Position numbers and translations under genes: made by a program | The notes under the pieces: generated by a model | Told to the model about the DNA's origin: nothing | The model's database searches: none | Seen by the model: only the letters and a program-made list of their open reading frames with translations | Shown: positions 4,537 through 21,724 of the stretch, piece by piece | How positions within the stretch are numbered: the first letter of the stretch is position 1 | Layout of the letters: every line of letters begins with the position of its first letter | From: a virus | DNA length: 64,000 bases | Reading direction: 5' to 3' (one strand) | Virus record (IMG/VR): IMGVR_UViG_3300043539_002606 | Coordinates: 1 to 64,000 of that record

Positions 4537-4542
4537 ATCTCT

Positions 4543-4570
4543 ATCTTATACTGTTTTTTCGTATTGTAAA
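4543..4570 (-). promoter_or_regulatory. Early-type promoter for uvsX
   Basis: Minus-strand TTTACA (4565-4570), 16-base spacer, then TAAGAT (4543-4548) six bases before the uvsX ATG. The -10 is weaker than in the other members of this promoter set, but the architecture is the same. It overlaps the 3' end of the 4546-4911 gene. Confidence 0.5.
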
Positions 4571-4911
4571 CCTAATTTTCTATTTAAAAAGTCCCTATCA
4601 GGACTTTGACCTTGCATTTGCCCTCGCGAATATTCAACTGCAAAGCTACAATAGTTAATAGTATCTTTAAAACTATCTTCAATACTCTCAAAGTTTGGAG
4701 AGTAGTTTGGATCATGTTGCATCGCTTCAATGACACTACGAATACGCAGCATTTTAGCCCAAACAATATCAAGCAGTGTGCTTACTCCATTTGGATAATA
4801 GTCAGCTTGTTGAATGCTGCTATATGGATTCTGATAATCATTTCCCTTTTTGAGTTGTAATTCTACACACTCTCGTAATACCTTTACGCTTTCTTTTTCT
4901 TCTAGTCTCAT
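4546..4911 (-). CDS. DUF1599-like protein (possible nucleotide modification associated domain 1)
   Basis: A 121-residue product starting MRLEEKESVKVLRE. The start at 4911 lies one base after the stop of the upstream thymidylate synthase-family gene (arrangement TAACATG); an upstream ATG at 4947 is possible but overlaps that gene. The layout (KKGNDYQNP near the N-terminus, a helix around LRIRSVIEAM, then ESIEDSFKDTINYCSFAVEY) resembles DUF1599, also called nucleotide modification associated domain 1. That match is from memory of the family pattern and needs a profile search. Adjacency to a dCMP-hydroxymethylase-like enzyme fits a nucleotide metabolism role. Confidence 0.6.
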   Translation of the reverse strand: MRLEEKESVKVLRECVELQLKKGNDYQNPYSSIQQADYYPNGVSTLLDIVWAKMLRIRSVIEAMQHDPNYSPNFESIEDSFKDTINYCSFAVEYSRGQMQGQSPDRDFLNRKLGLQYEKTV

Positions 4912-4912
4912 G

Positions 4913-5593
4913 TTATTTTTGTTTATAAATTTCTCCAGTTTTTGCATAGTGTTCAACAAGATAAAACTGTCTTTCGTATAGATGTAAATTACCAACTTGC
5001 CAGACTATATCTCCAGGCAAGATGCCAAGATCATCAGCTAGCGCATGTTGAACGTGACATTGCCATGCATAGTCATTGCGATAGCCAGCCCATGCATCAT
5101 TGCTTCGCATCTGCACAACTGTTTGCAAGCGACCATCGCGAATTTGATATTGTACTGTATTTGTACAAATGAAATCGCTCATGCCATCTGTATTATATTC
5201 ATAGTGCATACTTGGTCGAGTATAGATCATAACAGCGCGACGGCTATTAGGATTAGTTCTTAATTCAAGCAATACGTTTTGATATTGATTATAGTTCTTT
5301 TCGTGCCAAACCAAATAGCCATAGTTGCTGTTAATATATCCACCTTTACTTGCTACTTGTTGCCAGATCTTTGGCACATCACCCGGAATATCATCTACTC
5401 TTAGACTTTGAGAGAGATACCATGCCAGTTCGCGTGTGACATAATCTTCGTTGACTTCACCGAAAATACTTGGCTCATCAGCAATAAAACTAGCGCCCAA
5501 TATTTCGATTGTTTTGCAACCAGTCTTATCAGTTGTAAACTGTCCTGAATTATAGGCAGTTAAAAAATTATTTCTTATATCTGTTATCAACAT
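4913..5593 (-). CDS. Thymidylate synthase-family enzyme, likely dCMP hydroxymethylase
   Basis: This about 226-residue protein belongs to the thymidylate synthase/dCMP hydroxymethylase fold, which transfers a one-carbon unit from methylene-tetrahydrofolate to C5 of a pyrimidine nucleotide. Seen: the phosphate-binding SRRAVMIY, the catalytic cysteine in ICTNTVQ, the DGRL and QMRSND segments, and GNLHLY matching the family GDxHxY. At the position of the Asn that selects dUMP in thymidylate synthase the sequence reads GYRND, placing Asp there, as known for T4 dCMP hydroxymethylase (Asp179). I therefore favour dCMP as substrate. The ATG at 5593 follows the upstream stop by four bases; in-frame ATG/alternative starts extend to 5632. 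If it makes hydroxymethyl-dCMP, the genome may contain modified cytosine. Confidence 0.75.
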   Translation of the reverse strand: MLITDIRNNFLTAYNSGQFTTDKTGCKTIEILGASFIADEPSIFGEVNEDYVTRELAWYLSQSLRVDDIPGDVPKIWQQVASKGGYINSNYGYLVWHEKNYNQYQNVLLELRTNPNSRRAVMIYTRPSMHYEYNTDGMSDFICTNTVQYQIRDGRLQTVVQMRSNDAWAGYRNDYAWQCHVQHALADDLGILPGDIVWQVGNLHLYERQFYLVEHYAKTGEIYKQK

Positions 5594-5597
5594 AGAT

Positions 5598-6011
5598 TTA
5601 TACATAACGGTTAATTGTTGCACGATTATCAAGCAACATGATCATATAACGGCGATCAAATTCTTGGATCTTTTCAATTGCTGCGCACAAATTTTGTTCA
5701 TCAATTTTGCCGTGAATATATTCCAATTCAGTTTCAATAAGCCAATTGACCATAAGCTCACGATCGTTATTTAGATATTCGATAAATTCTTCAAAATCTA
5801 TACGAGTTTGATCAGTTGGCCAAATATAATCACCAGCTAAAGTTTCTGTTATATGCTTATAGAAAGTTTCACCTGCTTTAAACAAATGACATCTAATGTC
5901 ATCGTTTTCTGCGACAATGAGACAATCAATTGCATTTGACAATTCATGGCTTGTTGTTTGCATATCTTTTGTTTTTATCATATTGTTATGGAATGTATTA
6001 TAGTCTATCAT
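5598..6011 (-). CDS. Hypothetical protein upstream of the dCMP-hydroxymethylase-like gene
   Basis: A 137-residue acidic, mostly helical protein (MIDYNTFHNNMIKTKD). No domain is recognised. It ends within a few bases of the next start and follows the primase gene by 27 bases, so it is probably in the same operon. A start at the internal ATG at about 5981 is possible, preceded by TATAAT at 15 bases but without a good -35. Confidence 0.65.
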   Translation of the reverse strand: MIDYNTFHNNMIKTKDMQTTSHELSNAIDCLIVAENDDIRCHLFKAGETFYKHITETLAGDYIWPTDQTRIDFEEFIEYLNNDRELMVNWLIETELEYIHGKIDEQNLCAAIEKIQEFDRRYMIMLLDNRATINRYV

Positions 6012-6038
6012 GTTTTTTGTATTTTGTAAATCATAAAA

Positions 6039-6983
6039 TCATATTAAAACGCTTTCAATTGCCCAATTAAGAGCTCTTTGGCTTTCAGTATGCAAATCTC
6101 GGCTTTTATACCAGCCTCCAGTATCGGCGTCAAGTTGTTTAGCAATCATTTCAAGATCATATGCACTTATATCAAAGCCTCGTTTGAGGGCATTTGCGGC
6201 TGTTGAGCAGAGTATAAGATACATCTTATGATACCAACCACTCGTAGTTAGTGCTCGATATTCTGCAACTGCTTTTTTATTAACAAACGGACAATCAACA
6301 TAGCTGCTCCATTTAGCATTGCGATTTAAACGCTGACGCTGATAATCAAGCAACTTTTGTTTAATCTCATCACTTAGTTGTGCCTTAAAGCTTGTGCTCT
6401 TGAAACTATTGTCATTATACTCAACACTTGCGAGAAGTTCATCAACTTTAATAGGCTCTCCGTTAAAACTATGGAAAAAACTATATGCTTGTGGATATTG
6501 TGCAGGCACATAATACATGCGACTAAGATCTTTAGTTTGTGGATCTCCTAGTTCATTATATCTCTTATTAAGCGCATACCAAAAATGTTTGATTTCACCA
6601 GCTGCGATATCTCGATCGCATGCTAAGACTATTCTAAACTTAGCATGTTCAGCACGACTGCTTGAGCTGTTATAAACCACACACTGACAATCCTTAAAGG
6701 TATCAATAACGCTTTGAGCATCACCATTATAGTCATCAATATCGAGTGCAGCCCAACCAGCCCAGCATTCAACATTGGCATTTGCTCGTGTTGAATCTCG
6801 TTTATAAACAGCTGGACTAATTAGTGGACTGCCCTGTCGTCTTTCATCGCGTTTGGGTTTATAGCCAGGCTGAGTGTATAGATTATGCAAACATTCAACA
6901 AACTGTTCCCAGTTTTCAAACTCACCATGTCGATGAGTCTTGTTATCAAAAATTGATTTGAATATTGTAAAACCTATTTTCAT
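6039..6983 (-). CDS. Archaeo-eukaryotic-type (AEP/PriPol-like) primase
   Basis: The 314-residue protein has the motif order of the AEP primase superfamily: an acidic metal-binding ALDIDDYNGD near residue 82, SSSSRAEHAKFRIVL near 110 (motif II with conserved Ser, His-containing segment and Arg), and KDLSRMYYVP near 153 (motif III-like). Such enzymes synthesise primers from nucleotides on single-stranded DNA, and some also polymerise. The C-terminal half (220-314) has helical segments resembling a PriCT-type domain. It overlaps the upstream NTP pyrophosphatase gene by an ATGA junction. T4 uses a TOPRIM primase (gp61) instead; none is seen here, so this gene probably supplies primase activity to gp41. 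Confidence 0.75.
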   Translation of the reverse strand: MKIGFTIFKSIFDNKTHRHGEFENWEQFVECLHNLYTQPGYKPKRDERRQGSPLISPAVYKRDSTRANANVECWAGWAALDIDDYNGDAQSVIDTFKDCQCVVYNSSSSRAEHAKFRIVLACDRDIAAGEIKHFWYALNKRYNELGDPQTKDLSRMYYVPAQYPQAYSFFHSFNGEPIKVDELLASVEYNDNSFKSTSFKAQLSDEIKQKLLDYQRQRLNRNAKWSSYVDCPFVNKKAVAEYRALTTSGWYHKMYLILCSTAANALKRGFDISAYDLEMIAKQLDADTGGWYKSRDLHTESQRALNWAIESVLI

Positions 6984-7387
6984 ACAAGTTCAGAAAAACG
7001 GCCATGATTGCCGCTATGATTTGGTGGTTGCCAGCCTTCTGGCTTAATTAAGTCTGGAAGACCAAAGGCATTTGGTCGACTTGCTTTTACGCCAACCTCT
7101 TTATTCATATTTGCAGCAAGTACTTCATTCCATGCTGCATGACTATCAACACCAAAAAGATCAAGTGTGCCGATCGCGACAACACAAAGATCAATCAATG
7201 CATCAACTGTTTCTTCAGAATCACGACGCGTAATTGCTTCTTGCAATTCAGCTAGCTCTTCTGCTAGAAAGCTTACTCTAAATTTAATAAACTCATGTAG
7301 CAGCTCTGGCGAAAGAGTCGCCATTTTAGCTTTTACATTATAATGCTCATGCATCTTTTCAATATCTTCTACCCAGTTTTGTGACAT
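6980..7387 (-). CDS. MazG-like all-alpha NTP pyrophosphatase
   Basis: A 135-residue protein with the EExxE...ExxxD pattern of all-alpha NTP pyrophosphatases: FLAEELAELQEAI near residues 40-52 and EETVDALIDLCVVAIG near 57-72, which would coordinate magnesium and the nucleotide phosphates. Such enzymes hydrolyse non-canonical or signalling nucleotides to monophosphate and pyrophosphate. The C-terminal tail (PNAFGLPDLIKPEGWQPP) is typical of phage MazG-like proteins. It shares an ATGA overlap with the primase gene and follows gp43, so it belongs to the replication and nucleotide-metabolism unit. Confidence 0.8.
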   Translation of the reverse strand: MSQNWVEDIEKMHEHYNVKAKMATLSPELLHEFIKFRVSFLAEELAELQEAITRRDSEETVDALIDLCVVAIGTLDLFGVDSHAAWNEVLAANMNKEVGVKASRPNAFGLPDLIKPEGWQPPNHSGNHGRFSELV

Positions 7388-7409
7388 ATATTTTTTTAGT
7401 TATTTGTTA

Positions 7410-9932
7410 TTATGCGAAAAAGTCTTCGAGGCTTGAACGCTCCTCTGCGCTCCAGCCAATTGCATCAAGAATTAGTTGTATTGGCTCAAGAAACGCCTTT
7501 TGAAATTGCATATCAAAGTCAATATAACTTTCAATCTTAAATTCAATTGGCAGTTTACCAACAAATGCTATGCAATTTTCTCGTGTTGGATTTTGTGGTC
7601 GCAAGAATATGTATTTAATCTTTTCTCCGTTTTTAATCTTTGGCACATTTTTGCAATTCACTTCATCAAGCAACCAGTTATGCATAAGACATCCACGCAC
7701 ATGCAGCGGTGTGCCCTTTGTATAGATGGTTTTGCGATCAGCATATTTGCGAACATTAGTAACACCACGCGGCAATCCAATTTGTTCAGGAGTCATGCTT
7801 TCAAACTCACGTCTAAATTTAGCAATTGCATCTTGTGTTTGTTTTTGATTGCCGCTAATAATAACAGAGAATAGATTTTTCATAGCTTCACGACAAACCT
7901 TTGGCGTACTGCTTTTTACTGCTTCAATGCCTTTCATTTTAATTTTAGGCTTTGCATATTGTACGCCTTCACTGTTATGCACATTCAGAATATATCTTTT
8001 CTTTGCAGTCCAGATTGCGCGATCAGCAATAACTTCTCGCTTCATATTCATAGTATTTTTATATGCTTGAGTCATATCAGCGAGAGTTTTAAATGTTTTT
8101 TGAAAAAGAGGCTCAAGTGCCTTGGAACCAAACTCATCAAGAAATGCTACTGGATTTTTAGGTGAGAATTGATTAACTACGTCTTCAACATTCAAATAGA
8201 TGCTATCAGTGTCCATTGCAATAACATAGTCTTTAGACTTTGTGTTTTTCAAAAAGCTATTGAGATATGTATTGATTGCATACTCAGCTTTGTTAATAAC
8301 AAGCTGGCCAGTAAGTGTAATGCCTTCTGCAATAAGAATATCAAAATAGCGGAAATATTTGTTTGCAATAGCACCGTAAAGACTATTCATCAAAATCTTG
8401 ATACACATCTGCTCGGTATCAAGACGAGAGATTTCAGATACGAGAGCTGGAGACTTTGAGATTTCATAGTCTTGCTGTTTGCCTAACATCTCCTTTTTAA
8501 TAATCACTCGGCGATTATAAAGCTCTTCAACAATCGCTGGCAAAAAGCCTTGTTTATCTCGACGAAATGTTGCACCATTTGCGGCAACAGCAAGATTATC
8601 TTCTAAGCCATCAATTTTAGATAGAGTCAATAGCTTATCAGGACCTAATCCACTAATCACGCTATGTCGTACGAGCATTTCTGGACTCATGTTATATTGA
8701 ATAATGATATTAGGATATAGACTATTCAAGTCGAAGCTTAGCACCCAATTATACATGCCAGGTTTTGGATCCTTAACATATCCACCAGCATAGTCTTGTG
8801 CAAAGCTAGCTCTGTTATTTGGTGGTACAGCAATTTTTTTATTTGCAAGATAGCGAAAGATAATGCTATCCCAGATACCAACAGTGCCGAGCGTGTCGGC
8901 ATAGTTAACACCGCCAAAATAGGCAAGTGTAAAAACAAGATTAAGTAGACCAAGCTTTTGCTCAAAGCGTTCAATAAGTTCAACGTCAACAACGTTATAT
9001 TCAACATATGTTTGATAGTCTGTTTCATAGAGATTTTTTAGACTGCCACTATAATCAACCTTATTTTCGCCAAGCACAACTTCAGCGATATGATCAAGCT
9101 TATAACTTTCTTGTTGACCATATGTGTTGAGAGTAAATTTCTTAAAGAGCTCAAGATAGTCGAGCTGTTGTATGCCTACGATATTATAACCATATTGCTC
9201 TTGACCTTTGACAGTGACATTACGCTCTTCAATTTGTTTCCATGGACTAAGCTTAAGAACTTCTCCTTCATCAAGCAAAAGACTGCAGCGATTAACAAGA
9301 TATGGTATATCGAAAAAGTTTGTGTTCCAGCCAGTAATAACATCAGGCGTATTATCAGGATCACTCCACCAATCAATAAAGTCTTGAAGCATATCAGACT
9401 CTTTGATAAACTCGCGATATTCAATTTTCAAATGGCGAAGCTTGCTAATTGACATGTCATATTCTTTAAGACCCCAAACAATATAAACATCTTGTCGACT
9501 ACTCTTAACAGTAATTGTTAGCACACGATTGCTTGCCATGCGTGCTTCACTATAGCTTCCTTCTTCATCGCAGTCAACCTCAATATCGATATACGCAATA
9601 TCAATAAAACGCTTGACATAGTCAATCCTATCTGGAAATTGACTTTGAATAAACGCAGGAATCCAACGATCATTGCCATAGATCTTAAAACCAGAAATGC
9701 CTTCATATTGTTTTGTAAAAGCTCGGGCTTCGCTCATGCTATCAAATCGAACTGGCTCCAGAGCTTTGTCATCAAGACTGCGCCAACCACTTTTTGGATC
9801 CTTTGATTCAACATATAGACATGGCTTATATCGAAAGCTTTCATAGAGTTTTTTACCGCTCGCATCATAGCCTCGATATTTAATGCTATTCATGTGGCGA
9901 TCCACGTTTGTATAAAAACCAGTTAATGTCAT
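7410..9932 (-). CDS. 43: Family B DNA polymerase, T4 gp43
   Basis: The 840-residue replicative polymerase has both exonuclease and polymerase motifs: exo I DIEVDCDEE near residue 118, exo II GWNTNFFDIPYL near 200, exo III YNVVDVELI near 316, motif A FDLNSLYPNII near 403, motif B KILMNSLYGAIANKY near 517 and motif C AMDTDSIYL near 575, followed by KKRYI near 640. It is somewhat shorter than T4 gp43 (898). The C-terminus SSLEDFFA fits a sliding-clamp-binding tail. An early-type promoter and a hairpin terminator lie directly upstream; the -10 element ends six bases before the ATG, so its message is predicted to be leaderless. Confidence 0.97.
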   Translation of the reverse strand: MTLTGFYTNVDRHMNSIKYRGYDASGKKLYESFRYKPCLYVESKDPKSGWRSLDDKALEPVRFDSMSEARAFTKQYEGISGFKIYGNDRWIPAFIQSQFPDRIDYVKRFIDIAYIDIEVDCDEEGSYSEARMASNRVLTITVKSSRQDVYIVWGLKEYDMSISKLRHLKIEYREFIKESDMLQDFIDWWSDPDNTPDVITGWNTNFFDIPYLVNRCSLLLDEGEVLKLSPWKQIEERNVTVKGQEQYGYNIVGIQQLDYLELFKKFTLNTYGQQESYKLDHIAEVVLGENKVDYSGSLKNLYETDYQTYVEYNVVDVELIERFEQKLGLLNLVFTLAYFGGVNYADTLGTVGIWDSIIFRYLANKKIAVPPNNRASFAQDYAGGYVKDPKPGMYNWVLSFDLNSLYPNIIIQYNMSPEMLVRHSVISGLGPDKLLTLSKIDGLEDNLAVAANGATFRRDKQGFLPAIVEELYNRRVIIKKEMLGKQQDYEISKSPALVSEISRLDTEQMCIKILMNSLYGAIANKYFRYFDILIAEGITLTGQLVINKAEYAINTYLNSFLKNTKSKDYVIAMDTDSIYLNVEDVVNQFSPKNPVAFLDEFGSKALEPLFQKTFKTLADMTQAYKNTMNMKREVIADRAIWTAKKRYILNVHNSEGVQYAKPKIKMKGIEAVKSSTPKVCREAMKNLFSVIISGNQKQTQDAIAKFRREFESMTPEQIGLPRGVTNVRKYADRKTIYTKGTPLHVRGCLMHNWLLDEVNCKNVPKIKNGEKIKYIFLRPQNPTRENCIAFVGKLPIEFKIESYIDFDMQFQKAFLEPIQLILDAIGWSAEERSSLEDFFA

Positions 9933-9938
9933 GTCACT

Positions 9939-9967
9939 ATATTACCACAAATTTTATCATTTGTAAA
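9939..9967 (-). promoter_or_regulatory. Early-type promoter for gp43
   Basis: Minus-strand TTTACA (9962-9967), 17-base spacer, TAATAT (9939-9944), then six bases to the gp43 ATG at 9932. The predicted transcription start coincides with the start codon. Confidence 0.75.
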
Positions 9968-9968
9968 C

Positions 9969-9998: not shown

Positions 9999-10021
9999 TT
10001 TTAAGAATATTGGACTTAATA

Positions 10022-10675
10022 TTATTTAATAGTTTTGCCAAACAATAGTTCCTTTGCTTGCTCTAATATTGTTTTTCCACTATAATGAGATTCGTTTTTC
10101 ATTTTGGAGATTTTGGCTAAATCAACAATGGATCTTTTTAAGCCGCTCATATCGGCAGGAGACTGCAAATATAGCTTACCAATATTTTTTAGTGCAGAGG
10201 CAGCAACTGTTGCACGTGTTCTAACTCCATCTTTTTCTTTTTGCAATATTAGATTAAGAAGATCTTTGCCTGCGACTAGTGGTTTTAAGTATTTGGTAAC
10301 ATAGTTAACTGTTAAAAAGTCAGTTTTTACCCCTTTATCATTTTCTAGGCCATAGCTCTTTAATTTAGCTTTCGTAGCTGCACTTTCATTATTAATAATC
10401 TCAGTAAGAGCAGCTAATGCCTCTTTATAATTATTTTTGAAAAATGTTTTTGCGATACTATTAATTAGGGCATTGCTATCTTTTAGACACTTAAGAAGTG
10501 CATCAGCATAATATTGATTCATATCATCAACTGAGATTTCTGTTTTCATAATACCAGCTTTTGCCTTTGATGCAGACTTTAATAGATCCTCTGAATCACC
10601 AATAAATTGTTCTGTAGCATCTTGATAAGCAACGGCAATACTTTTTATTAATTTCTTATATTGATCTTTTTCCAT
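10022..10675 (-). CDS. Hypothetical late protein between regA and gp43
   Basis: A 217-residue lysine-rich, almost wholly helical protein (MEKDQYKKLIKSIAVAY). No domain recognised. It interrupts the T4-type regA-43 order, is preceded by a perfect late promoter (10683-10690, seven bases before the ATG) and is followed by a terminator, so it looks like an independent late cassette inside the replication cluster. A virion or morphogenesis role would fit the promoter, but this is inference. Confidence 0.75.
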   Translation of the reverse strand: MEKDQYKKLIKSIAVAYQDATEQFIGDSEDLLKSASKAKAGIMKTEISVDDMNQYYADALLKCLKDSNALINSIAKTFFKNNYKEALAALTEIINNESAATKAKLKSYGLENDKGVKTDFLTVNYVTKYLKPLVAGKDLLNLILQKEKDGVRTRATVAASALKNIGKLYLQSPADMSGLKRSIVDLAKISKMKNESHYSGKTILEQAKELLFGKTIK

Positions 10676-10682
10676 ATTATCT

Positions 10683-10690
10683 TATTTATA
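10683..10690 (-). promoter_or_regulatory. Late promoter for the 10022-10675 gene
   Basis: Perfect TATAAATA on the minus strand, ending seven bases before the ATG at 10675. Confidence 0.65.
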
Positions 10691-10696: not shown

Positions 10697-11119
10697 TTAC
10701 TTTTTAACTACTCCAATTTTATATTTGGCTTCAAGACTCCATTCACTCTTTTCGCGATATGGTACAATCTTGATGCTCTTTAGGCTGCTAACGTTATTAG
10801 CAATCTTATTGCGATCAACAATAGTGCATAGTCCCCAATCGTGCAGCAAGCTTGCAATTGCATTACGACGAGCAATGTCATCGCTACTCAATGTGCTAGG
10901 CTTGCCATCAAGCATAAAGAGCTCTTTGAAATGGCAGATATAATAACGACCTTGTTTATGCAAGATGTGACAGCTTTGCCAAAGTTTCTTTTCTTCGTTT
11001 TTACTTGCGACACCAATACGTGTTAGCGTCTCTTTAACCTTCAAGAAATCATCTGGCTCTTCAAGTGAAATCTCTAGCATCCAGCTACTATTCCATTCAT
11101 AATCTGATTGTGTTGTCAT
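10697..11119 (-). CDS. regA: RegA translational repressor
   Basis: RegA binds the start regions of early phage mRNAs and blocks their translation. The segment MLEISLEEPDDFLKVKETL and the central LWQSCHILHKQGRYYICHF, then ARRNAIASLLHDWGL, match T4 RegA closely. This protein is about 140 residues from the ATG at 11119, with roughly 13 extra residues before the T4-equivalent start; a longer frame from 11152 overlaps gp62 by 20 bases. It follows gp62 as in T4 (44-62-regA-43 order). A GATAAATA late-type element lies five bases before the chosen ATG. Because many transcripts here look leaderless, how RegA recognises its targets in this phage is an open point. Confidence 0.9.
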   Translation of the reverse strand: MTTQSDYEWNSSWMLEISLEEPDDFLKVKETLTRIGVASKNEEKKLWQSCHILHKQGRYYICHFKELFMLDGKPSTLSSDDIARRNAIASLLHDWGLCTIVDRNKIANNVSSLKSIKIVPYREKSEWSLEAKYKIGVVKK

Positions 11120-11124: not shown

Positions 11125-11132
11125 TATTTATC
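11125..11132 (-). promoter_or_regulatory. Possible late promoter for regA
   Basis: GATAAATA on the minus strand, five bases upstream of the regA ATG and overlapping the end of gp62. One mismatch to the T4 consensus at the first base. Confidence 0.4.
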
Positions 11133-12499: not shown

Positions 12500-12754
12500 T
12501 TATTGTTTCTTCAATGCGTCATATAATGATTTAATATCGCTCGTTTCTTCTTCGAAACTTGCTCCAGCTCGTTTATGATAGAGACGCGCTACCTTACGAA
12601 CCATTGGTTTTGGCAGATCAAGACTATCATGCACAGCATGAATAATTTCTTTGATCTGATCTTTAGCAGCATCGACAATATCGAGCTGCTCATCAATTTC
12701 TTTGATCGCATCATAAAATGCGACTCGATCTGTTTCAGACTTGAATTCAATCAT
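12500..12754 (-). CDS. dsbA: DsbA, double-stranded DNA binding protein
   Basis: Small (84 residues) helical DNA-binding protein. The C-terminal half VRKVARLYHKRAGASFEEETSDIKSLYDAL matches T4 DsbA in spacing and residues (LYHK, F-E-x-E-T, LYD). In T4, DsbA binds DNA near late promoters and enhances late transcription. It sits next to the probable gp33 gene, as dsbA does in T4, and between gp45 and gp44 in one operon. Confidence 0.78.
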   Translation of the reverse strand: MIEFKSETDRVAFYDAIKEIDEQLDIVDAAKDQIKEIIHAVHDSLDLPKPMVRKVARLYHKRAGASFEEETSDIKSLYDALKKQ

Positions 12755-13033: not shown

Positions 13034-13705
13034 TTACGCGTTAAATGTTGAAGTTTTTTCAAGTGCGATGTAATATTGAACGCCTGCACCAGCGTGAGTC
13101 CAATGACTAATAAAGCGTTTACTAAGCTCGACACTATAGTCACCATTTAGCAACTTAAGATTGGCAATCAAAATATGAAAGTCAAAGCTATCAGTATTGT
13201 CATTGCTAGAGTCAAGCAGCAATTCAAAACTATTTGCGCTACTATTTTTTGGATCACTAATTCGTGCAATAATCTTGCCACTATTGCCAACAATACTCAG
13301 CACGCTTTGACCAAGAACTGCAGCAGCTTTGCGTAATTGACCAAGCTGAGCATTTGAAAATGATACTGTCACATCAACGCTAGGCATAGTAATGCTCTTT
13401 TGTGGATGTGTAAGAATATTTGGATCTGCAAAACGATAGTTTGCGCTAATGCCTCCATCGCTAATCTTGACGCTCTTGTCCGAGAATTCAAGTTCAGCAT
13501 CAGTGGAGCCGATCAAGCCATATACATTCATGAATTCATTGAGATCATAGATTCCAAAGTCAACATCAAATGTTTCATTTGCAGTGGCATAGATGCTTTT
13601 TGCATCGTTAATTGTATCAAGCGGCTTATTAGCCTTGACAACAAGATTAGGGTTGATTGACGCAAAATTGCGTAGGATTTCGATTGTGTTTGTTTCTAAC
13701 TTCAT
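13034..13705 (-). CDS. 45: Sliding clamp, T4 gp45
   Basis: Trimeric processivity clamp for gp43 and mobile activator of late transcription. The 223-residue product starts MKLETNTIEILRNFASIN, closely following the T4 gp45 N-terminus, and carries the IYDLNEFMNVYGL segment, GNSGKIIARISD and FDFHILIANLKLLNGDYSVEL near the C-terminus, all in gp45 order. Length matches T4 (228). It has a strong early-type promoter whose -10 ends nine bases before the ATG, so leader length is at most a few bases. Confidence 0.95.
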   Translation of the reverse strand: MKLETNTIEILRNFASINPNLVVKANKPLDTINDAKSIYATANETFDVDFGIYDLNEFMNVYGLIGSTDAELEFSDKSVKISDGGISANYRFADPNILTHPQKSITMPSVDVTVSFSNAQLGQLRKAAAVLGQSVLSIVGNSGKIIARISDPKNSSANSFELLLDSSNDNTDSFDFHILIANLKLLNGDYSVELSKRFISHWTHAGAGVQYYIALEKTSTFNA

Positions 13706-13714: not shown

Positions 13715-13743
13715 AATATATCATAAGGCGTGATGTTTGTAAA
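13715..13743 (-). promoter_or_regulatory. Early-type promoter for gp45 operon
   Basis: Minus-strand TTTACA (13738-13743), 17-base spacer, TATATT (13715-13720), nine bases before the ATG. It directly follows the T run of the upstream terminator. Confidence 0.78.
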
Positions 13744-14122: not shown

Positions 14123-15289
14123 TTAGAAAGGGACTTCGTCAACTGCAGTGAGGAGAGTATTATCGGCGAGACTCTGTGCATCAATTTTGCTATAGAGGTC
14201 GAGAAAGGCTTCGCGAGTATCGCTATCAAAGCGAGCAATGCACATGCGAATTGCAGTCATGCGATCGCGAAAGATAGCAAAGCTCTTAACGATGTGACAG
14301 AGGCGTCGTGTAGAGACTACTTCATCCACACCTTCGTTTTCAAAGGTTGCGCGAATAACGCTGCTCCATGATACAAGTCTATTAGCAAACTCATCGTCAT
14401 CACATTGCAAGCTAGTCATATGCTTCTTGACGATTTTGAGCTCAGTAGCAAACTCAGGATATGGCTGGTCGATGCTAGCAACAAAGCGTTCAATGAATGC
14501 TTCGTCAATGATTTGAGCTGCCACATAGCGACCATCATCGCTGCCGCGACCCTTTGTGTTGGCTGTTGCAATGACGTTAAAGCCTGGGGCCGGAGTCACG
14601 GTCTCACCTGTTTTCTTGATGAGAATTGGCTTGCCTTCGAGAACGCCTTGCAAACACATAATTTTGTTGCTGCCGCGGTCGAGCTCATCAATAAGTAGGA
14701 TGGCACCACGTTTCATCGCTTTAATGACTGGACCATGTTGGAAAACTGTCTCGCCATTGACAAGACGAAAGCCGCCGAGAAGATCATCTTCGTCTGTTTC
14801 GGGACTGATTTGCACACGCACATATTCGCGCTTGCTTTTGGCGCATGCTTGCTCAACCATAATGGTCTTGCCATTGCCGCTCATGCCGCTAATATAGAGT
14901 GGGAAAAACATGCGACTATCAACAATGCGCTTGACATTTTGATATTCTCCCCATGGAATGAAATTACTATCGACAGCAGGCACATAAATCTCATCGCTCG
15001 AGACACTCTGCACGCCACGTAGAGCCACAACTGGTGCAGCCTTTGGAGTTGGAGTTGGAACTGGAGCTTGAGTTTGAACTTGTGCGGCAACTACGCCATC
15101 GGCGAGATGCGCTAAGTTCCATGAGCCGCGACCAACTTTGTGCGTCATAAAGGTGCTATTTGCACCGTTATAGCTAAAGCCATTGGCACGTGCGTGCTCA
15201 TAGATTTGAGTTGTGCTTGCTGTGGGCCAGGCGCCAATAGCTTTGAGTGACGCGAGGGTGGATTCGATATTTCCTGATTTAGTGGACAT
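14123..15289 (-). CDS. cobS-like: CobS/MoxR-like AAA+ ATPase
   Basis: A 388-residue AAA+ protein. Residues 1-70 form an HTH-like segment; 70-95 is a proline/alanine linker; the ATPase domain has Walker A GMSGNGKT near 137, Walker B ILLIDELDR near 199, sensor 1 NVIATANTKG near 241 and FIERF near 265 as arginine-finger region. This is the MoxR/CobS group, whose members act as chaperones with VWA-domain partners. The partner is likely the VWA protein at 15718-18069. Phage homologues are often labelled CobS after the cobaltochelatase subunit, but cobalamin synthesis is not implied. It has a near-perfect early-type promoter. Confidence 0.85.
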   Translation of the reverse strand: MSTKSGNIESTLASLKAIGAWPTASTTQIYEHARANGFSYNGANSTFMTHKVGRGSWNLAHLADGVVAAQVQTQAPVPTPTPKAAPVVALRGVQSVSSDEIYVPAVDSNFIPWGEYQNVKRIVDSRMFFPLYISGMSGNGKTIMVEQACAKSKREYVRVQISPETDEDDLLGGFRLVNGETVFQHGPVIKAMKRGAILLIDELDRGSNKIMCLQGVLEGKPILIKKTGETVTPAPGFNVIATANTKGRGSDDGRYVAAQIIDEAFIERFVASIDQPYPEFATELKIVKKHMTSLQCDDDEFANRLVSWSSVIRATFENEGVDEVVSTRRLCHIVKSFAIFRDRMTAIRMCIARFDSDTREAFLDLYSKIDAQSLADNTLLTAVDEVPF

Positions 15290-15309: not shown

Positions 15310-15338
15310 ATTATAAACTGAAATTGTGATATTGTAAA
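15310..15338 (-). promoter_or_regulatory. Early-type promoter for the CobS-like gene
   Basis: Minus-strand TTTACA (15333-15338), 17-base spacer, perfect TATAAT (15310-15315). The ATG is 20 bases downstream, leaving a leader of about 13 bases without an SD. Confidence 0.82.
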
Positions 15339-15349: not shown

Positions 15350-15613
15350 TTAAGCCAGTGTTGCTTTGTAACACTCAGCGCTAACGCGCATGACAGATTC
15401 ATCTGCATCGCAGAAGCAGACTCCAGATGGGTGGCAAAGACCATCAGCGTCGATCCATTCCTTTCCAAGGATGTATTGATCGCAGCTTTTTTTGGTTAAG
15501 AGGCATATTCTGAAAAAGCCTTGTTCAAGTGATATGACGTTGCCTACTGCGCAGTCGGAGATTTTGATTGCTTTGAGGGGGGTATTAGCGTTGGTGAACT
15601 TGTACTTGATCAT
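15350..15613 (-). CDS. Hypothetical protein between CobS-like and CobT-like genes
   Basis: An 87-residue protein beginning MIKYKFTNANTPLKAIK at the ATG 15611-15613. A longer frame (start 15658) would run through the promoter, so the shorter start is chosen. It has six cysteines, several clustered (CDQ, GLCHPSGVCFCDA), and no recognised domain. Its placement between two functionally paired genes suggests a link to them, but nothing else supports that. Confidence 0.6.
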   Translation of the reverse strand: MIKYKFTNANTPLKAIKISDCAVGNVISLEQGFFRICLLTKKSCDQYILGKEWIDADGLCHPSGVCFCDADESVMRVSAECYKATLA

Positions 15614-15628: not shown

Positions 15629-15657
15629 ATTATACCATATTTTGATGAGATTGTACA
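15629..15657 (-). promoter_or_regulatory. Early-type promoter for the 15350-15613 gene
   Basis: Minus-strand TGTACA (15652-15657), 17-base spacer, perfect TATAAT (15629-15634), 15 bases before the ATG. Confidence 0.75.
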
Positions 15658-15714: not shown

Positions 15715-15717
15715 AGA

Positions 15718-18069
15718 TTAGGCAATCAAGTCCATGAACTTGCTCAGAAAGACTCGGCTTTGCTTTTTGTTAGCAGTATGCTTCGTGAACTCCTTGGCGA
15801 GCTTATTACGACCTGCGCGGCTTTCAGTATCAAGATCATTGATGCTAAAGTCATCCTCGGCTAGTTTAACTCCGGCACGAGCATCGCGCATTACGAAATA
15901 GCCGTCGAAGCCAAAGCCGCCTGGGATATAGATCACTCGCTCATTTGAAGTGCGCGAAGCTTTCATAGTCTTTTCATAGGCAGTATAACCTTCGCCCCAA
16001 GTTTTGATATTTGGAAAAGAATCGCTGCTGATATATGCATTGGAGCATTTAGCAACAAGATCTTTTTTGCCGCTAGTTGGCAAGAAGAAGCAGAGAGTGT
16101 TGCTGCCAGTGATTGCTTTAAAGTCGCGCATCAACTGACTTGCCATTGCTGCTTTATCTGTAGCTTCGCGAGCGAAAAACTTGATCTCTTTCTTATGCCA
16201 GACAAAGCTTCGTTGAGTGCTATAGCTATGGTTATGAGAATCTTTGTTATGCAGTGAATCATTGCCATTTTTAAAGACACTGAGATTGCAACCATCACCA
16301 TCGCTAATGAAAATTGTGTTCATCTTTTGCACTCCAGTTTTTGCTCTAAAGGCATTGACAAGATGTGCAGCAATGATGGTTGTTTCATAGAGAGGTGTGC
16401 CGCTCATAACTTCAAGTTGGCTGCCAAAGACATTGCTACGACCGCATGCATAGTTGAGAAAGAGCTCTTTGCTCGCAGTTTCAAAGTCGACTTTATTGAG
16501 CTCACTATTGAGAAGCTCATTGACTGTCGCCCAGCGAAAATCAATATTGTCACCAATGCGAGCTTCGCGATAGTCATAATTTTCGCTGATCGAGGTAAAG
16601 CCATAGACAACAAAAGGAACGCCAACCGCTTTGCAAAACCAAACAAGTTCAAAAGTTTGTTTGACGACATCAGAAATTACGCCCTCCATGCTTTGACTGC
16701 AATCAAGAAAGAATGCCATGCCGTGGCTTTTGCTTTGTGCTAGGCGAGATACGCTCTTGAAGATTTGGTCGTCATAGCGATAGGCATGCAGTTTGTTGAC
16801 GTTGATCTGACCAGTTGTAGCAAGAGTAGCTCTGCTATATTCAAAGGCGCTCTTTTTACGTTCGAACTCTTTGACAAAGCTTGCTACACTTGACTTGCTG
16901 CTCTTTTTGAAATCGTTCCAACGATCATTCCAGTCTGCATGAGTCATGGCATCGTTATAGCGACTCAAGCGTTTTTGACGTTCAGCACGAACTTTCTTGA
17001 TATCGTTAATGCATTTTGCAAAGTCAGATGGAATTGGAGTATTGACTGTGCTATAGTCATTGCCTTCGTGAAGCTTGTTCAATTCGCTGTCAAAGCTTTG
17101 TTGTGTCGAGCAGCTATAGTCAGCTTCTTTGGTCTGAGTTGGAACTTTGACATTTTTGCCGGCACCGGGGTTTTCAGACTTATCAGCTTGAGGCTGAGTA
17201 ATTGGCTTTTGCTCTTTTGCATCGTCTTGAGAAGCTTCAGTCGTAGACTCTGCTTCAGTGCCATCATCGACCTCGTCAGACTTCTCAGAGCTTTCAGATT
17301 TGTCGCTCTCAGATTTGTCAGATGCTGCATCGCTCTCAGAGCTTTCGCTATCATCTGCAGGCTTAGGGTGACTCAGATTTTGAGTATCGTCATCTGCTTC
17401 ATCTTCGCTTTTTTCATCGCTGCTTGGAGATGACATGTCATCTTCTTCGGACTCTTGCGGCTGGGGAATTTGAGGATTGACATTTTTGTCGCTCTCAATA
17501 AAGTCAATGATGCGGCCGCAAACTTCAAGCACATCGCTCCATGTTTGTGTAGCGTCACATGCTTCAAAGAGAGCTTGCTCTGCATCAGAAAATGTGATGC
17601 TTACTTGATCGCGCAGTTTGCCTTTGAGATTAAGGCGATCAAGAAAGCTCAGTTGAGAGAGATCTTTGCCTGCGATCTTAAAGAAGTCTTGCTCTAAGAA
17701 GTAGCTATAGCCATTGCGAAATGGACTAATAAGGCCTGGGAAATTTTCTTGCACTAGACGCTCGATGCGAATATCTTCGACAATGTTTGCAATGTCAAAT
17801 GGTGCTTTTGGATAGCGAGTCATAAACTCAGTGTGTGCTTGAACTGGAGTATGCAGCGCATGTCCAACTTCGTGGCCTACTAGCAAGTCAGCCACATTCT
17901 TATCAGAGATGTTCCAACTTGGCAGGCCGAGGATTCGGTTTTTGACATCAAAGAAGGCGGTGCTATAATTGCCTACGCGAATCATGATGTTTTCTTTAGC
18001 CAACAGGCGGGCGAGTTGCTTTTGGCTCTCGAAGTTGAAGGCTGGTTGTTTTGAGGTGGTGTTGCTCAC
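15718..18069 (-). CDS. cobT-like: CobT-like protein: HExxH metallopeptidase-like domain plus VWA domain
   Basis: A 783-residue protein. The N-terminal domain has HEVGHALHTP near residue 70 (HExxH zinc motif) followed by NIVEDIRIERL near 97, supplying a likely third ligand. Residues about 200-320 are a very acidic, Ser/Asp/Glu-rich linker. The C-terminal half is a von Willebrand A domain with the MIDAS motif DCSQSMEG (DxSxS) near 455 and FISDGDG near 589. This arrangement is that of CobT-type partners of MoxR/CobS ATPases. Translation begins at GTG 18067-18069, six bases after the -10. The domain set suggests an ATP-driven protein-remodelling or protein-cleaving system; the target is unknown. 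Confidence 0.82.
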   Translation of the reverse strand: MSNTTSKQPAFNFESQKQLARLLAKENIMIRVGNYSTAFFDVKNRILGLPSWNISDKNVADLLVGHEVGHALHTPVQAHTEFMTRYPKAPFDIANIVEDIRIERLVQENFPGLISPFRNGYSYFLEQDFFKIAGKDLSQLSFLDRLNLKGKLRDQVSITFSDAEQALFEACDATQTWSDVLEVCGRIIDFIESDKNVNPQIPQPQESEEDDMSSPSSDEKSEDEADDDTQNLSHPKPADDSESSESDAASDKSESDKSESSEKSDEVDDGTEAESTTEASQDDAKEQKPITQPQADKSENPGAGKNVKVPTQTKEADYSCSTQQSFDSELNKLHEGNDYSTVNTPIPSDFAKCINDIKKVRAERQKRLSRYNDAMTHADWNDRWNDFKKSSKSSVASFVKEFERKKSAFEYSRATLATTGQINVNKLHAYRYDDQIFKSVSRLAQSKSHGMAFFLDCSQSMEGVISDVVKQTFELVWFCKAVGVPFVVYGFTSISENYDYREARIGDNIDFRWATVNELLNSELNKVDFETASKELFLNYACGRSNVFGSQLEVMSGTPLYETTIIAAHLVNAFRAKTGVQKMNTIFISDGDGCNLSVFKNGNDSLHNKDSHNHSYSTQRSFVWHKKEIKFFAREATDKAAMASQLMRDFKAITGSNTLCFFLPTSGKKDLVAKCSNAYISSDSFPNIKTWGEGYTAYEKTMKASRTSNERVIYIPGGFGFDGYFVMRDARAGVKLAEDDFSINDLDTESRAGRNKLAKEFTKHTANKKQSRVFLSKFMDLIA

Positions 18070-18075
18070 AAGGAA

Positions 18076-18104
18076 ATAGTACCATATTTCGGGAGAAAAG
18101 TAAA
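18076..18104 (-). promoter_or_regulatory. Early-type promoter for the CobT-like gene
   Basis: Minus-strand TTTACT (18099-18104), 17-base spacer, TACTAT (18076-18081), then six bases to the GTG start. Predicted leaderless with a GTG start codon. Confidence 0.68.
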
Positions 18105-18120
18105 CAAAAAAATGATATTT

Positions 18121-18141
18121 TTTTCACTTTTTTTCACTTTT
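18121..18141. repeat. Right arm of a 21-bp inverted repeat flanking the CobT-like gene
   Basis: Exact reverse complement of 15661-15681. Lies between the CobT-like promoter and the gp46 terminators in a 172-base gene-free stretch. Confidence 0.5.
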
Positions 18142-18173
18142 TAGCCAAAGCTATGATGGGCATGGAGACAAAA

Positions 18174-18202
18174 TTTAGGGCCCCCCTGACATGGGAGGCC
18201 CC
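18174..18202 (-). terminator. Hairpin after gp46 (distal)
   Basis: On the minus strand GGGCC-T-CCC pairs with GGG-G-GGCCC around ATGTCA (18178-18202), followed by TAAATTTTG. Shares 15 bases with the terminator after the CobT-like gene. Confidence 0.6.
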
Positions 18203-18221
18203 GGTTTTTAAATAACGTGCG

Positions 18222-18235
18222 CCCCCAGGCGGGGG
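18222..18235 (-). terminator. Short GC hairpin just after gp46
   Basis: CCCCC-GCCT-GGGGG on the minus strand, seven bases past the gp46 stop. Followed by mixed sequence rather than a T run, so it may stabilise the 3' end rather than terminate. Confidence 0.4.
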
Positions 18236-18241
18236 AGTCAC

Positions 18242-19966
18242 CTACTCAGTCTCAGACTTGAGTCTCGTGAAGTTTTTCACCTTCTCAAATTCAAGCTTAC
18301 GTTCAAATTTGCCGTCCTGCATCTCGGCATTGTGCGAGATAACAAAGACTCGTGTGCTCGGATCAAGCGTCTCCATAATCTTGAATAGATTCTCAATGCC
18401 CTCACCATCCAAACTGCCATCAAATACCTCGTCAAGCATAAGCAGATTGGTATTTGCGCTATTCTTCATCTTTGAGATTTGTCTCCATGCAAAGAGCAAG
18501 CTTAAATCAATACGTGCTCTTTCGCCTTCGCTGAAACTAGCATAGCTAAAGTCATCACGATAGCGACTACGCAGGGTCTCGGTGAAATTCTCATCAAGCT
18601 CAAAGCTTACGAAAAAGTCAAGAACTTGCAAATAGTTATTGATCAGCTGATTCATGACTGGCAGATATTGGCGAATAATCTTGGTTTTAATGCCAGTGTC
18701 CTTTAGCATCTCTGCAACCACATCATTATAGTGACGGCTGTCTTGTAGATTGCTCTTAAGATCCGAGAGATTATCTCGTTGACTCTTTAGTGTTTCAAGT
18801 TCAGCTTGTGAGCTTTCAATTGCAACAGCATCAGCAATACTATCTCTGGACTTTTTACACTCAGCCAATCTCTTTTCAAGATTTCGCAAATGCAAGCTGT
18901 TTGCATGAATAGCATTTTGTAATTTGGAGAGTTCATTCATCTGCTCTGTAAGAGCTCGAGCTTTTTCTGCAGCATGTGAAATTGTTTCTGTGATGCTTGT
19001 ATCACCAGCTGCCAACTCAGTTGCTTTGTGGGTGCATGTCACAAGTGCTTTTTCTCGAGTCTCGCTAGAGATGTCCTGTGTGCAGGTAGGGCAGTGTGTA
19101 TGCTCAGAATAGAATGCGCTCTGCTCTTGCAGATCCTTGTATTTGAGTTTGATTTGGGTTTTTAGGCCTTGTAACTCTGCAATCTTTTCTCGTTGCTTAT
19201 CGAGTTTGATCTTTACATCTGGGGCATGTGCATTATAGGTTTGTAGCTTGCTTGAGTTTTCCTCTAGCACACTCGCTATTTCGGCATCAATCTCTGCAAT
19301 CTCAATCTCAAGTTTATCAGAGCTATCACCACTAATCTTTTGTAGCTTTTCAATGTGACCATGCTGCAATCGCACTCGCTCACGTAAACTCTCAAGTTGA
19401 GTCTCTGTATAGCGAAGCTGTTCTTTGAGCTTGCCTTGATTTTCTTTAAGCAGCGTATTCATTTTACTAAAGATACTAATGTCAAGCAGATCTTCAATAA
19501 CAGTACGACGCTGACCTTGGGGCAGTTGCATAAATGGTATAAAGTTACCACTGCCGAGAACAATGACCTGGTGAAAGCTCTTATGATTTAGTTTTAGGAT
19601 GTTTGTCTCAAGAATCTTTTGATAATCACGATTATGTGATTCCTGATTAAGCATCTCTCCGTCAAGCCAGATCTCAAAGATATTTGGCTTTTGACCTCGT
19701 ACTACTCGATATTGTTTGGTGCCGCAACGAAACCATATTTCAACGAGCAGACCTTTGCCGTTGATGCTATTCACAAGCTGTGTTTTGTTAATGCCTCGAT
19801 GAGGCTTGCCAAAAAGTACAAAGCTAATCGCATCAAGCAGCAAACTCTTGCCACTGCCGTTTTTTCCAACAATAAGAGTTGATCTATATCCTTCGAGATC
19901 AACTTCAATAGGAGAAGCACCAACGCTCAGGAAATTTACATATTTAATTTTTTCGAAAATGATCAT
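18242..19966 (-). CDS. 46: Recombination endonuclease subunit gp46 (SbcC/Rad50-like)
   Basis: SMC-like ATPase subunit of the gp46/gp47 nuclease that resects DNA ends for recombination and host DNA breakdown. The 574-residue protein shows Walker A GKNGSGKSLLL near residue 33, coiled-coil arms, a CPTC zinc hook near 290 at the apex, the ABC signature FSEGERARIDLSL near 478 and Walker B LLMLDEVFDG near 513. Length and layout match T4 gp46 (560). It overlaps gp47 by four bases (ATGA). Confidence 0.95.
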   Translation of the reverse strand: MIIFEKIKYVNFLSVGASPIEVDLEGYRSTLIVGKNGSGKSLLLDAISFVLFGKPHRGINKTQLVNSINGKGLLVEIWFRCGTKQYRVVRGQKPNIFEIWLDGEMLNQESHNRDYQKILETNILKLNHKSFHQVIVLGSGNFIPFMQLPQGQRRTVIEDLLDISIFSKMNTLLKENQGKLKEQLRYTETQLESLRERVRLQHGHIEKLQKISGDSSDKLEIEIAEIDAEIASVLEENSSKLQTYNAHAPDVKIKLDKQREKIAELQGLKTQIKLKYKDLQEQSAFYSEHTHCPTCTQDISSETREKALVTCTHKATELAAGDTSITETISHAAEKARALTEQMNELSKLQNAIHANSLHLRNLEKRLAECKKSRDSIADAVAIESSQAELETLKSQRDNLSDLKSNLQDSRHYNDVVAEMLKDTGIKTKIIRQYLPVMNQLINNYLQVLDFFVSFELDENFTETLRSRYRDDFSYASFSEGERARIDLSLLFAWRQISKMKNSANTNLLMLDEVFDGSLDGEGIENLFKIMETLDPSTRVFVISHNAEMQDGKFERKLEFEKVKNFTRLKSETE

Positions 19967-21048
19967 AGACTATCAAGGGCTTGGGCTTCAACATAAAGTT
20001 CTTGCAATAATGTTTTAATTCGATCTCTGTCAAGATCTGTTTCAACAGCATCTACATAGTTATTAAGCAAACTAACTGTGTCTGTTGCAACTGTAGATTC
20101 ATCGATCGTTACATTGCTTGCATTATATTCATCAAAATTTTCAACTGTCTTTACTTCAAATGGATTTGTTGCTTGTATTGCATCAACAAATTTGTCAAAG
20201 AGATAGGGATTCTTTTTGACTCTCACAACTAGCTTGACATAGGTCGATGTTAATGCACTAAAATCATATTCAGCGAGATCAGCATAGATGTTATCATCTG
20301 CATCGCTATCATCATAAACAAGCTTATTGAAAAGAGTAATGGGATTACGAATTGCAGTTAGCTCACGAGTCTCACTATCAAGAATATGAAAATATTTTGG
20401 ATCATCACAATCTGCCCATGTTAATTCATAGGGTGTGCCAAGATAGTGTATATTTCCTTTGTCACTTTTTGTATGATAGTGACCACTCAACACACTCTCA
20501 TAGCGAGAGAAAAGTTCTGCGTTCATGCCATGACTTGCAGCTGGCATGCCTTTCATCATCTCAAAGCCAGCAAGCTCTAGATGTGCACCAAGTATTGGAG
20601 CTTGGGCAGTTTGTATAAATTCAATGCTGCTAGCATAATTCTCTGGATTAATCCATGGCAGCAGTGCAATCTTTAATCCATCATAATCCAAAATTGTTGG
20701 ACTCATATGCAGCTTAATAACATCGCTATGCAACATGACAATCTCTTGCAAGCTGCAGACATCGTTTGTGCTCTTGTAATAGACATCATGGTTGCCAGGA
20801 ATAATATTCATCGTCATGCCATATTCACGAAGCTTTTCAATGAAATTGGCTTTGTTTGCAGCCAATGCTTTGATGTTCGTAAATTTGCGATGATCATAAT
20901 AATCACCTAGATGCAGGATTTCAGTGATGCCTTGTTTTTTACATTCAGGAAAAAATACTTCATCATAGAATCTCTTTTCATTGTTAATAAAGACATCGCT
21001 GCCATTTTTGATCCCGCTATGGGTATCTGTGATAATAGCTATTTTCAT
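19963..21048 (-). CDS. 47: Recombination endonuclease subunit gp47 (SbcD/Mre11-like)
   Basis: Metallophosphoesterase nuclease partner of gp46, 361 residues (T4: 339). All phosphodiesterase motifs are visible: DTHSG near residue 8, LGDYYDHR near 48-54, GNHDVYY near 85, and GHYHTKS near 192. It overlaps gp46 downstream and gp55 upstream by four bases each, so 55-47-46 forms a tightly coupled unit driven by the gp55 promoter. Confidence 0.95.
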   Translation of the reverse strand: MKIAIITDTHSGIKNGSDVFINNEKRFYDEVFFPECKKQGITEILHLGDYYDHRKFTNIKALAANKANFIEKLREYGMTMNIIPGNHDVYYKSTNDVCSLQEIVMLHSDVIKLHMSPTILDYDGLKIALLPWINPENYASSIEFIQTAQAPILGAHLELAGFEMMKGMPAASHGMNAELFSRYESVLSGHYHTKSDKGNIHYLGTPYELTWADCDDPKYFHILDSETRELTAIRNPITLFNKLVYDDSDADDNIYADLAEYDFSALTSTYVKLVVRVKKNPYLFDKFVDAIQATNPFEVKTVENFDEYNASNVTIDESTVATDTVSLLNNYVDAVETDLDRDRIKTLLQELYVEAQALDSL

Positions 21049-21689
21049 AGTGTTGCAAAGAAATCACTCAATGGACCAAGTTCTGGTGTTTTTTTAGCTG
21101 GTCGACCTCTTTTCTTTTTGGTCGGCAATGGCTCATGATCCTTAACGCTGCAAAGATCATCATTATAAAAGTCTCCATCAAGTTTATGACGAGCTCGTTC
21201 AATCATGCTCTCTCCGATCTGACCGCTGTCGTCACCAAAGTCTGCAAATGAATCAAGACTTGAACCTTCAATAAGTTTCTGCTTAATCTCGGTTTGTTTC
21301 TTTTCTTTTTCAATGCGTCTCAAAAAGGCATAATAACTGATTTGGGTAAAATAGCTAAATGCATTTGGTGTGCCAGTTCGAGTAGGAGCATCAATATTAA
21401 AGTTATTGACAACCTTAATGCAATTCTCAACTGCATCCATAACCATATCATCTCGATAGCTATAGTTCATGAAGTTGGGACTTCTTGATAAGCCATTGGC
21501 AATCTGATAAATCCCCAATGCAATATAGTCTGTAACTACTGGATCCTCAATGCCGCTTGCTCGGGCAGTTTTAACGCTTTGAACATATGAGGCCAAAGCC
21601 AAACTAAGTTCTTTATTGTTAATATAATCGGATCCTTCTTTTCTTTTACGTGTACTTTTTACTTTTTTTGGTTGATCTTCTTCAATCAT
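21045..21689 (-). CDS. 55: Late sigma factor gp55
   Basis: Sigma-like subunit that directs host RNA polymerase to NATAAATA late promoters. The match to T4 gp55 is clear around NFMNYSYRDDMVMDAVENCI (residues 80-100) and NAFSYFTQISYYAFLRRIEKE (125-145), the region-2-like core. From the ATG at 21689 it is 214 residues; a frame from 21713 would read through the promoter and is rejected. The C-terminus LGPLSDFFATL resembles the gp43 tail SSLEDFFA and is a likely gp45-binding peptide. It contains a KKKRGRPAKK stretch before the tail. It has its own early-type promoter with the -10 seven bases before the ATG. Confidence 0.92.
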   Translation of the reverse strand: MIEEDQPKKVKSTRKRKEGSDYINNKELSLALASYVQSVKTARASGIEDPVVTDYIALGIYQIANGLSRSPNFMNYSYRDDMVMDAVENCIKVVNNFNIDAPTRTGTPNAFSYFTQISYYAFLRRIEKEKKQTEIKQKLIEGSSLDSFADFGDDSGQIGESMIERARHKLDGDFYNDDLCSVKDHEPLPTKKKRGRPAKKTPELGPLSDFFATL

Positions 21690-21696
21690 GCTATCT

Positions 21697-21724
21697 AGTA
21701 TACCACAAAACAAAAGTTTGTAAA
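21697..21724 (-). promoter_or_regulatory. Early-type promoter for gp55-47-46
   Basis: Minus-strand TTTACA (21719-21724), 16-base spacer, TATACT (21697-21702), seven bases before the gp55 ATG. Confidence 0.75.

Follow-up and report, generated by a model that had tools for sequence, protein, structure and literature searches.

How is translation initiated in a T4-like phage whose promoters stand directly against its start codons? In the textbook view, translation in T4-like phages is led by Shine-Dalgarno (SD) sequences and regulated through leaders (gp32, gp43, and RegA control), and the question is raised by IMGVR_UViG_3300043539_002606, a linear virus record of 83,606 bases whose first 64 kb form the window. 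The genome is probably incomplete, the record being linear; its G+C (guanine plus cytosine) content is 38%, and the T4-like functions recognized are uvsX, gp43, gp45, gp55, regA, uvsY, gp13, gp20, gp21, gp8, gp18, the terminase, and tail-tube proteins, with a gp43 that is at most 47% identical to the closest annotated DNA polymerases (those of Phage C48C1 and of cyanophages). A sequence-only reading of part of the window had described seven minus-strand early promoters next to start codons and had predicted a set of leaderless mRNAs. The prediction is supported by enrichment over other ATGs, shuffles, and permuted boxes and by conservation of the gp43 gap, and the phage very probably makes predominantly leaderless primary mRNAs from early and late genes alike. 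The abutment of promoter and start codon is not limited to early genes, and the earlier frame was too narrow.

All seven early promoters are found with the hexamers, spacers, and gaps that had been claimed, in a sigma70-type layout (TTGACA-like -35, spacer of 16-18, TATAAT-like -10), and at five genes the -10 box indeed ends 6, 6, 6, 7, or 9 bases before the start codon. Specifically, the uvsX promoter (4543-4570, minus strand, as are the following) combines a -35 box TTTACA at 4565-4570, a spacer of 16, and a -10 box TAAGAT at 4543-4548 that lies 6 nucleotides (nt) before the ATG at 4536; the promoters of the gp43 DNA polymerase (9939-9967) and of the CobT-like gene (18076-18104) read TTTACA-17-TAATAT-6-ATG, with the ATG at 9932, and TTTACT-17-TACTAT-6-GTG, with the GTG at 18069; and those of the gp55 late sigma factor (21697-21724) and of the gp45 sliding clamp (13715-13743) read TTTACA-16-TATACT-7-ATG and TTTACA-17-TATATT-9-ATG, with the ATG at 21689 and 13705, respectively. 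The promoters of the CobS-like gene (15310-15338, TTTACA-17-TATAAT-20-ATG, ATG at 15289) and of gene 15350-15613 (15629-15657, TGTACA-17-TATAAT-15-ATG, ATG at 15613) are followed by short leaders without SD, A/C-rich in the former. Two more early promoters with a gap of 6 belong to record positions 78356-79096 (TTTACA-17-TATAAT-6-ATG) and 80063-81058 (TTTACT-17-TATATT-6-ATG). The -10 boxes of uvsX, gp43, and the CobT-like gene are weak, matching TATAAT at only four of six positions, and orthologues of these genes keep the spacing and the gap while the bases change. The uvsX gap is kept in L010 (TAATAT-6-ATG), and more distant uvsX orthologues carry an SD; the CobT-like orthologues read TTTACA...TATAAT-6-ATG in G004 and TTTACA...TATTAT-6-ATG in G003; and gp45 orthologues in G003, G004, and L017 have TTTACA and a TAATAT-type -10 near the ATG. 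At gp43, the layout with a gap of 6-7 nt recurs in close relatives and in a group at 39-46% identity, and the gap is conserved from 100 to about 39% protein identity, although the bases change. The predicted leaderless layout at gp43, which persists at identities as low as 39%, has either an earlier origin or a wider distribution. Upstream of gp43, the relatives L012, L017, and L018 have an inverted repeat whose loop holds the -35 box; the repeat resembles a terminator for the preceding gene (for example, GGGAGG...TTTACAAGCCTCCCATTTTT), so that terminator and promoter overlap.

The proteins that T4-type late transcription requires are all encoded here, on the minus strand: the gp55 sigma factor (21045-21689, phrog_234), the gp45 clamp (13034-13705, phrog_223), and a gp33-like co-activator of the DsbA family (12500-12754, Pfam Phage_DsbA, PF11126). 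T4-type late boxes, NATAAATA, also abut start codons across the 83.6-kb record, most commonly with 5 bases to the ATG. The exact octamer TATAAATA occurs ten times on the minus strand of the window; eight of these copies stop 5-10 bases short of a gene start, and another stops 22 bases short. The gap is 5 nt at the gp13-like head-tail adaptor (box 38124-38131, gene 37369-38118), at the tail-fibre assembly-like gene 45302-45655 (box 45661-45668), and at 47560-47901 (box 47907-47914); 6 nt at 233-1771 (box 1778-1785) and 38741-39058 (box 39065-39072); 7 nt at 10022-10675 (box 10683-10690); 9 nt at the gp8-like baseplate wedge (box 60425-60432, gene 58943-60415); and 10 nt at the gp21 prohead protease (box 29259-29266, gene 28595-29248). 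The exception at 31696-31703 stands 22 nt before the ATG of 31113-31673, with an A-rich leader that contains no SD. Further minus-strand boxes are GATAAATA, 5 nt before regA (box 11125-11132, gene 10697-11119) and 7 nt before 48336-49766 (box 49774-49781); CATAAATA, 5 nt before a tail-tube gene (box 25950-25957, gene 25486-25944) and 39254-39622 (box 39628-39635) and 7 nt before 49782-53231 (box 53239-53246); and the variants TATAGATA, 5 nt before uvsY (box 25483-25490, gene 25031-25477), and CATATATA, 4 nt before the gp20 portal gene (box 31067-31074, gene 29458-31062), all ahead of an ATG. The tail-tube orthologues of G003 and G004 both have TATAAATA followed by 5 bases and ATG, and the gp20 gene of G003 keeps an ATATATA-type box 4 nt upstream.

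The two classes of promoter differ in geometry and point to the same nucleotide. The sigma70 -10 hexamer spans about -12 to -7, and the modal early gap of 6 therefore puts the predicted transcription start (+1) on the A of the ATG. The T4 late octamer spans -13 to -6, with gp55-dependent transcription beginning 6 bp past it (PMC1524935; PMC2988020), and the late gap of 5 therefore puts the predicted +1 on the same A. The convergence of two box geometries on one predicted start is a strong internal check. That such positions arise by chance in a genome of 38% G+C rich in TATA-like words has a negligible probability. In the record, a late box NATAAATA at a gap of 4-9 precedes 15 of 74 gene starts versus 3 of 3293 other ATGs (Fisher 2e-23), and an early promoter at a gap of 5-9 precedes 6 of 74 versus 11 of 3293 (Fisher 9e-7); an open reading frame (ORF) of 526 amino acids with a GTG start (23554-25134), which overlaps uvsY by about 100 nt and whose true start is uncertain, is excluded from these statistics. 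A comparison with shuffled sequence, which the sequence-only reading had proposed, bears the prediction out: the early pattern, scanned over the whole record as TTTACA-N16/17-TATAAT (at least 10 of 12 matching)-N6/7-[AG]TG, has 12 matches versus 1.9 +/- 1.3 (maximum 6) in 60 dinucleotide shuffles, and the late pattern has 16 versus 2.7 +/- 1.5, while permuted AT-rich heptamers, used as a control for the late box, give no comparable peak near starts. The early matches comprise five at gene starts, two at a duplicated small ORF, and five elsewhere; the last five favour chance and are probably background. Conservation in orthologues and the lack of the pattern in sister phages of the same G+C also speak against chance, and the abutment of boxes and starts far exceeds it.

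The reported absence of SD sequences holds as well, since no SD 4-mer stands ahead of any of the seven starts, and SD 4-mers are found ahead of 5% of the record's starts, less often than in an upstream control window (19%). The genes inside operons, many of which overlap or abut the preceding stop, likewise have no SD. Specifically, 27 of 70 minus-strand genes start at most 4 nt past the upstream stop or overlap it, typically as ATGA, and none of these has a promoter or a late box; coupling or reinitiation probably accounts for the translation of operon-internal genes.

Comparison with relatives, in which late-box gaps and SD were scored by one procedure for all phages, indicates that the predicted leaderless organization marks a clade. 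At gp13, for which 44 distinct orthologue upstream regions were surveyed (8 at 60% identity or more and 36 at 40-60%), the late box lies exactly 5 bases before the ATG in all eight close relatives, whereas among the 36 distant orthologues it lies within 10 nt in none and at 12-37 bases in 27. An SD motif is present in 26 of the 36 distant regions versus one of the eight close ones, where it sits upstream of the box. In the gp13 tree, the putatively leaderless state forms one clade (support 100/99) and occurs separately in the Pelagibacter phage HTVC008M, while in G003, which falls immediately outside the scored clade, the only box is a diverged one. At gp21, the box stands at 4-10 bases in 10 of 12 close relatives and in none of 18 distant ones. 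Moreover, gp8, 45302-45655, and uvsX, which here have a promoter or box against the ATG, have a conventional SD leader in the orthologues of HTVC008M and/or the Methylophilales phage Melnitz; at 45302-45655, the late box of both phages is farther from the start and an SD is present. Seven further contigs of the clade resemble the record, with late boxes mostly at 4-11 bases and SD at 0-10% of starts in all eight contigs, whereas six sister contigs of similar G+C have SD at 48-73% and boxes that are mostly distant; across the six sister contigs, HTVC008M, Melnitz, KVP40, and T4, the range is 43-73%. Late boxes at 4-7 bases before ORF starts number 13 of 18 in the record versus 0 of 27 in the T4 segments examined, 0 of 26 in S-PM2 (which has two sites at 2 and 3 bases), 0 of 14 in Syn9, and 0 of 10 in KVP40. 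SD precedes 62% of starts in T4, 53% in HTVC008M, 64% in Melnitz, and 27-29% in S-PM2 and Syn9.

These comparisons bear on two other explanations. If the start codons were misassigned, the true starts would lie downstream behind conventional leaders, and a few genes do have a second in-frame ATG or GTG within 25 codons. Against this, in 17 of 24 genes tested the next 24 codons contain no in-frame ATG or GTG, only uvsX has an alternative start with an SD-like 4-mer (a doubtful GTG at codon 18), and the alignments of gp13 and of gp21 with their orthologues begin at residue 1; misassignment is thus largely refuted and very improbable. Alternatively, the T/A-rich motif could be an unstructured landing context for the ribosomes of an SD-less host, with transcription starting farther upstream. 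The phage is SD-poor throughout, and PMC3155529 describes bacteria such as Bacteroidota as having no SD and low-GC start regions. Nevertheless, the motif is the precise T4-family late octamer rather than any AT-rich word, as the permuted heptamers are not enriched, the promoterless starts inside operons do not carry it, and the sister phages have the same octamer 12-37 nt before the same gene, which together make a landing context improbable, if somewhat less so than misassignment.

The best reading is that this T4-like lineage moved to largely leaderless initiation while retaining its late promoters. In the proposed mechanism, the host sigma70-type RNA polymerase would transcribe early genes, using TTTACA-N16/17-TATAAT promoters with a gap of 6 (or 7-9) bases between the -10 and the start, and late genes would be transcribed by RNA polymerase with gp55, the gp45 clamp, and the gp33-like co-activator from NATAAATA, mostly ending 5 bases before the ATG, so that in both classes +1 would fall on, or a few bases from, the A of the start codon. 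Since both spacings put +1 at or near this A, ribosomes would therefore have to recognize a 5'-terminal AUG, not an SD, and would load there, while operon-internal cistrons would be read by coupling or reinitiation. In other bacteria, leaderless loading involves mainly 70S ribosomes and is aided by more initiator tRNA (PMC9031893). Several observations weigh against a general leaderless state. Only about 23-26 of the 74 starts have a recognizable abutting promoter, the others being operon-internal or unexplained; clear leaders occur at gp32, the CobS-like gene, 15350-15613, 31113-31673, and gp18; and the late-box gaps range from 4 to 10, so that +1 cannot be exactly at the A everywhere. The leader of gp18 (31699-33474) contains an SD-like AAAGGA and is conserved in G003, and that of gp32 (record 75041-75961) is A/C-rich without SD and is also found in G003, which suggests that these two leaders are possible selected exceptions; given leadered exceptions such as gp18, SD recognition by the host ribosome may persist at some genes. 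The range of gaps is also what would be expected of real promoters that produce very short leaders (1-6 nt), bound by ribosomes as mRNAs with ultra-short untranslated regions rather than strictly leaderless ones. Gaps of 7-10, as at 10022-10675, gp45, gp8, and gp21, would, at standard spacing, leave some 2-5 nt of leader; however, the late mode of exactly 5 and the early mode of exactly 6 are the values that give +1 at the A in both geometries. At such length, the two states are functionally hard to separate, and ultra-short leaders are considered unlikely, though a more serious contender than the other alternatives.

Among known systems, T4 shares with this phage the TATAAATA octamer with its first T variable, the position of the boxes before structural genes, and the gp55, gp45, and gp33-like proteins; unlike here, where the box is mostly 5-7 nt from the start and SD accompanies 5% of starts, in T4 it is 12-35 nt away and SD accompanies 62%. 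The conventional SD-led layout, with a late box at least 12 nt away and an SD in between, is not that of the record. TA-led leaderless bacterial genes, for example in Actinobacteria and Deinococcus-Thermus (Zheng et al. 2011, PMC3160421), likewise lack an SD and show a -10-like signal some 10-12 bp ahead of the start codon, but here the setting is a T4-like phage with two promoter classes, sigma70-type and gp55-type, each with its own modal spacing. Single leaderless phage mRNAs are known, such as that of lambda cI (PMC9031893; lambda phage is also covered in PMC3160421), in which a phage gene has a 5'-terminal AUG, inferred or shown; that case concerns one regulatory gene, whereas the present one would extend, across a clade, to replication genes and a large part of the late regulon. 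HTVC008M (NC_020484, Kyanoviridae) has eight late boxes at a gap of 5, and its TATAAATA-N5-ATG sites at 6267, 7549, 18914, 31119, and 49747 agree with the start codons as deposited; unlike the present phage, HTVC008M and Melnitz (also Kyanoviridae) retain SD in 53-64% of genes, and 20 of the 24 late boxes located in Melnitz are at least 12 nt away. In the open-access literature, no description of a leaderless organization in T4-like phages was found, which is weak evidence of absence, and in the Pelagibacter papers examined that contain the word "leaderless" it stands in reference titles only; both leaderless genes and T4 late promoters are familiar, but no account of a T4-like clade dominated by the two together was found in that literature.

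Because the same promoters appear to have moved next to start codons clade-wide, a change in the mode of initiation can be traced gene by gene between close relatives. The arrangement predicts a host that is good at leaderless translation; it also provides a sequence signature from which the hosts of uncultured phages might be inferred, and a rule for choosing start codons that would make gene calls better. The cultured SAR11 phage HTVC008M, with its gap-5 late boxes and SD kept elsewhere, is a ready experimental system. As for the host, scanning gp43 against genome contigs found no relative, and neither WhiB, a marker of Actinobacteria, nor bS21 was found in the 12 clade contigs searched. No tRNA gene was found in the window, and an Rfam scan of it gave no match. 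The relative G018 (IMGVR 3300042868_013845), 97-98% identical to the phage at gp13 and gp21, carries at 67571-75711 (L266 7571-15711) 24 tRNAs, one of them an initiator-type tRNA-Met (C1:A72), and a one-piece transfer-messenger RNA whose tag, GENTLALAA, resembles the GENNFALAA tags of Bacteroidota and the GENKLALAA tags of Chloroflexota. A scan of species genomes for GENTLALAA-type tags matched mostly Bacteroidota GENNFALAA, because YTN also fits Phe codons; the true GENxLALAA tags are GENKLALAA, in one Dehalococcoidia and one SAR202 genome (Chloroflexota). TATAAT-N6-ATG occurs 30 times versus 12 for the reversed-pattern control in the SAR202 genome (G025, the species genome behind L313), and 63 versus 52 and 69 versus 72 times in two Bacteroidota genomes, suggesting possible leaderless usage in the SAR202 group; for a Chloroflexota host, this is a weak hint and not a host call. 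A bolder and tentative extension of leaderless initiation, which we would sooner doubt than accept, is that the whole lineage has left SD-led initiation, with the AUG at +1 in both classes, termination-reinitiation inside operons, T4-style leader control largely gone, and the initiator-type tRNA of G018 possibly favouring 5'-terminal AUGs in an SD-independent host. As a specific explanation this tRNA was set aside, an initiator-like tRNA being present in the leadered S-PM2 too, and it is only a lead.

Lastly, a plus-strand early promoter, TTTACA-16-TATAAT, is present in two copies (21749-21850 and 35143-35250, plus strand), each followed by an identical 39-nt stretch (AGGTGCCATGCACCTTCGGCTGAATG...) that can be folded into two hairpins or, alternatively, read as a leaderless small ORF whose ATG lies 7 nt past the -10 (MHLRLNVMKPI..., 21-22 amino acids). 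The duplicated unit may encode a small RNA or a small peptide, and both copies are also present in the relative G001.

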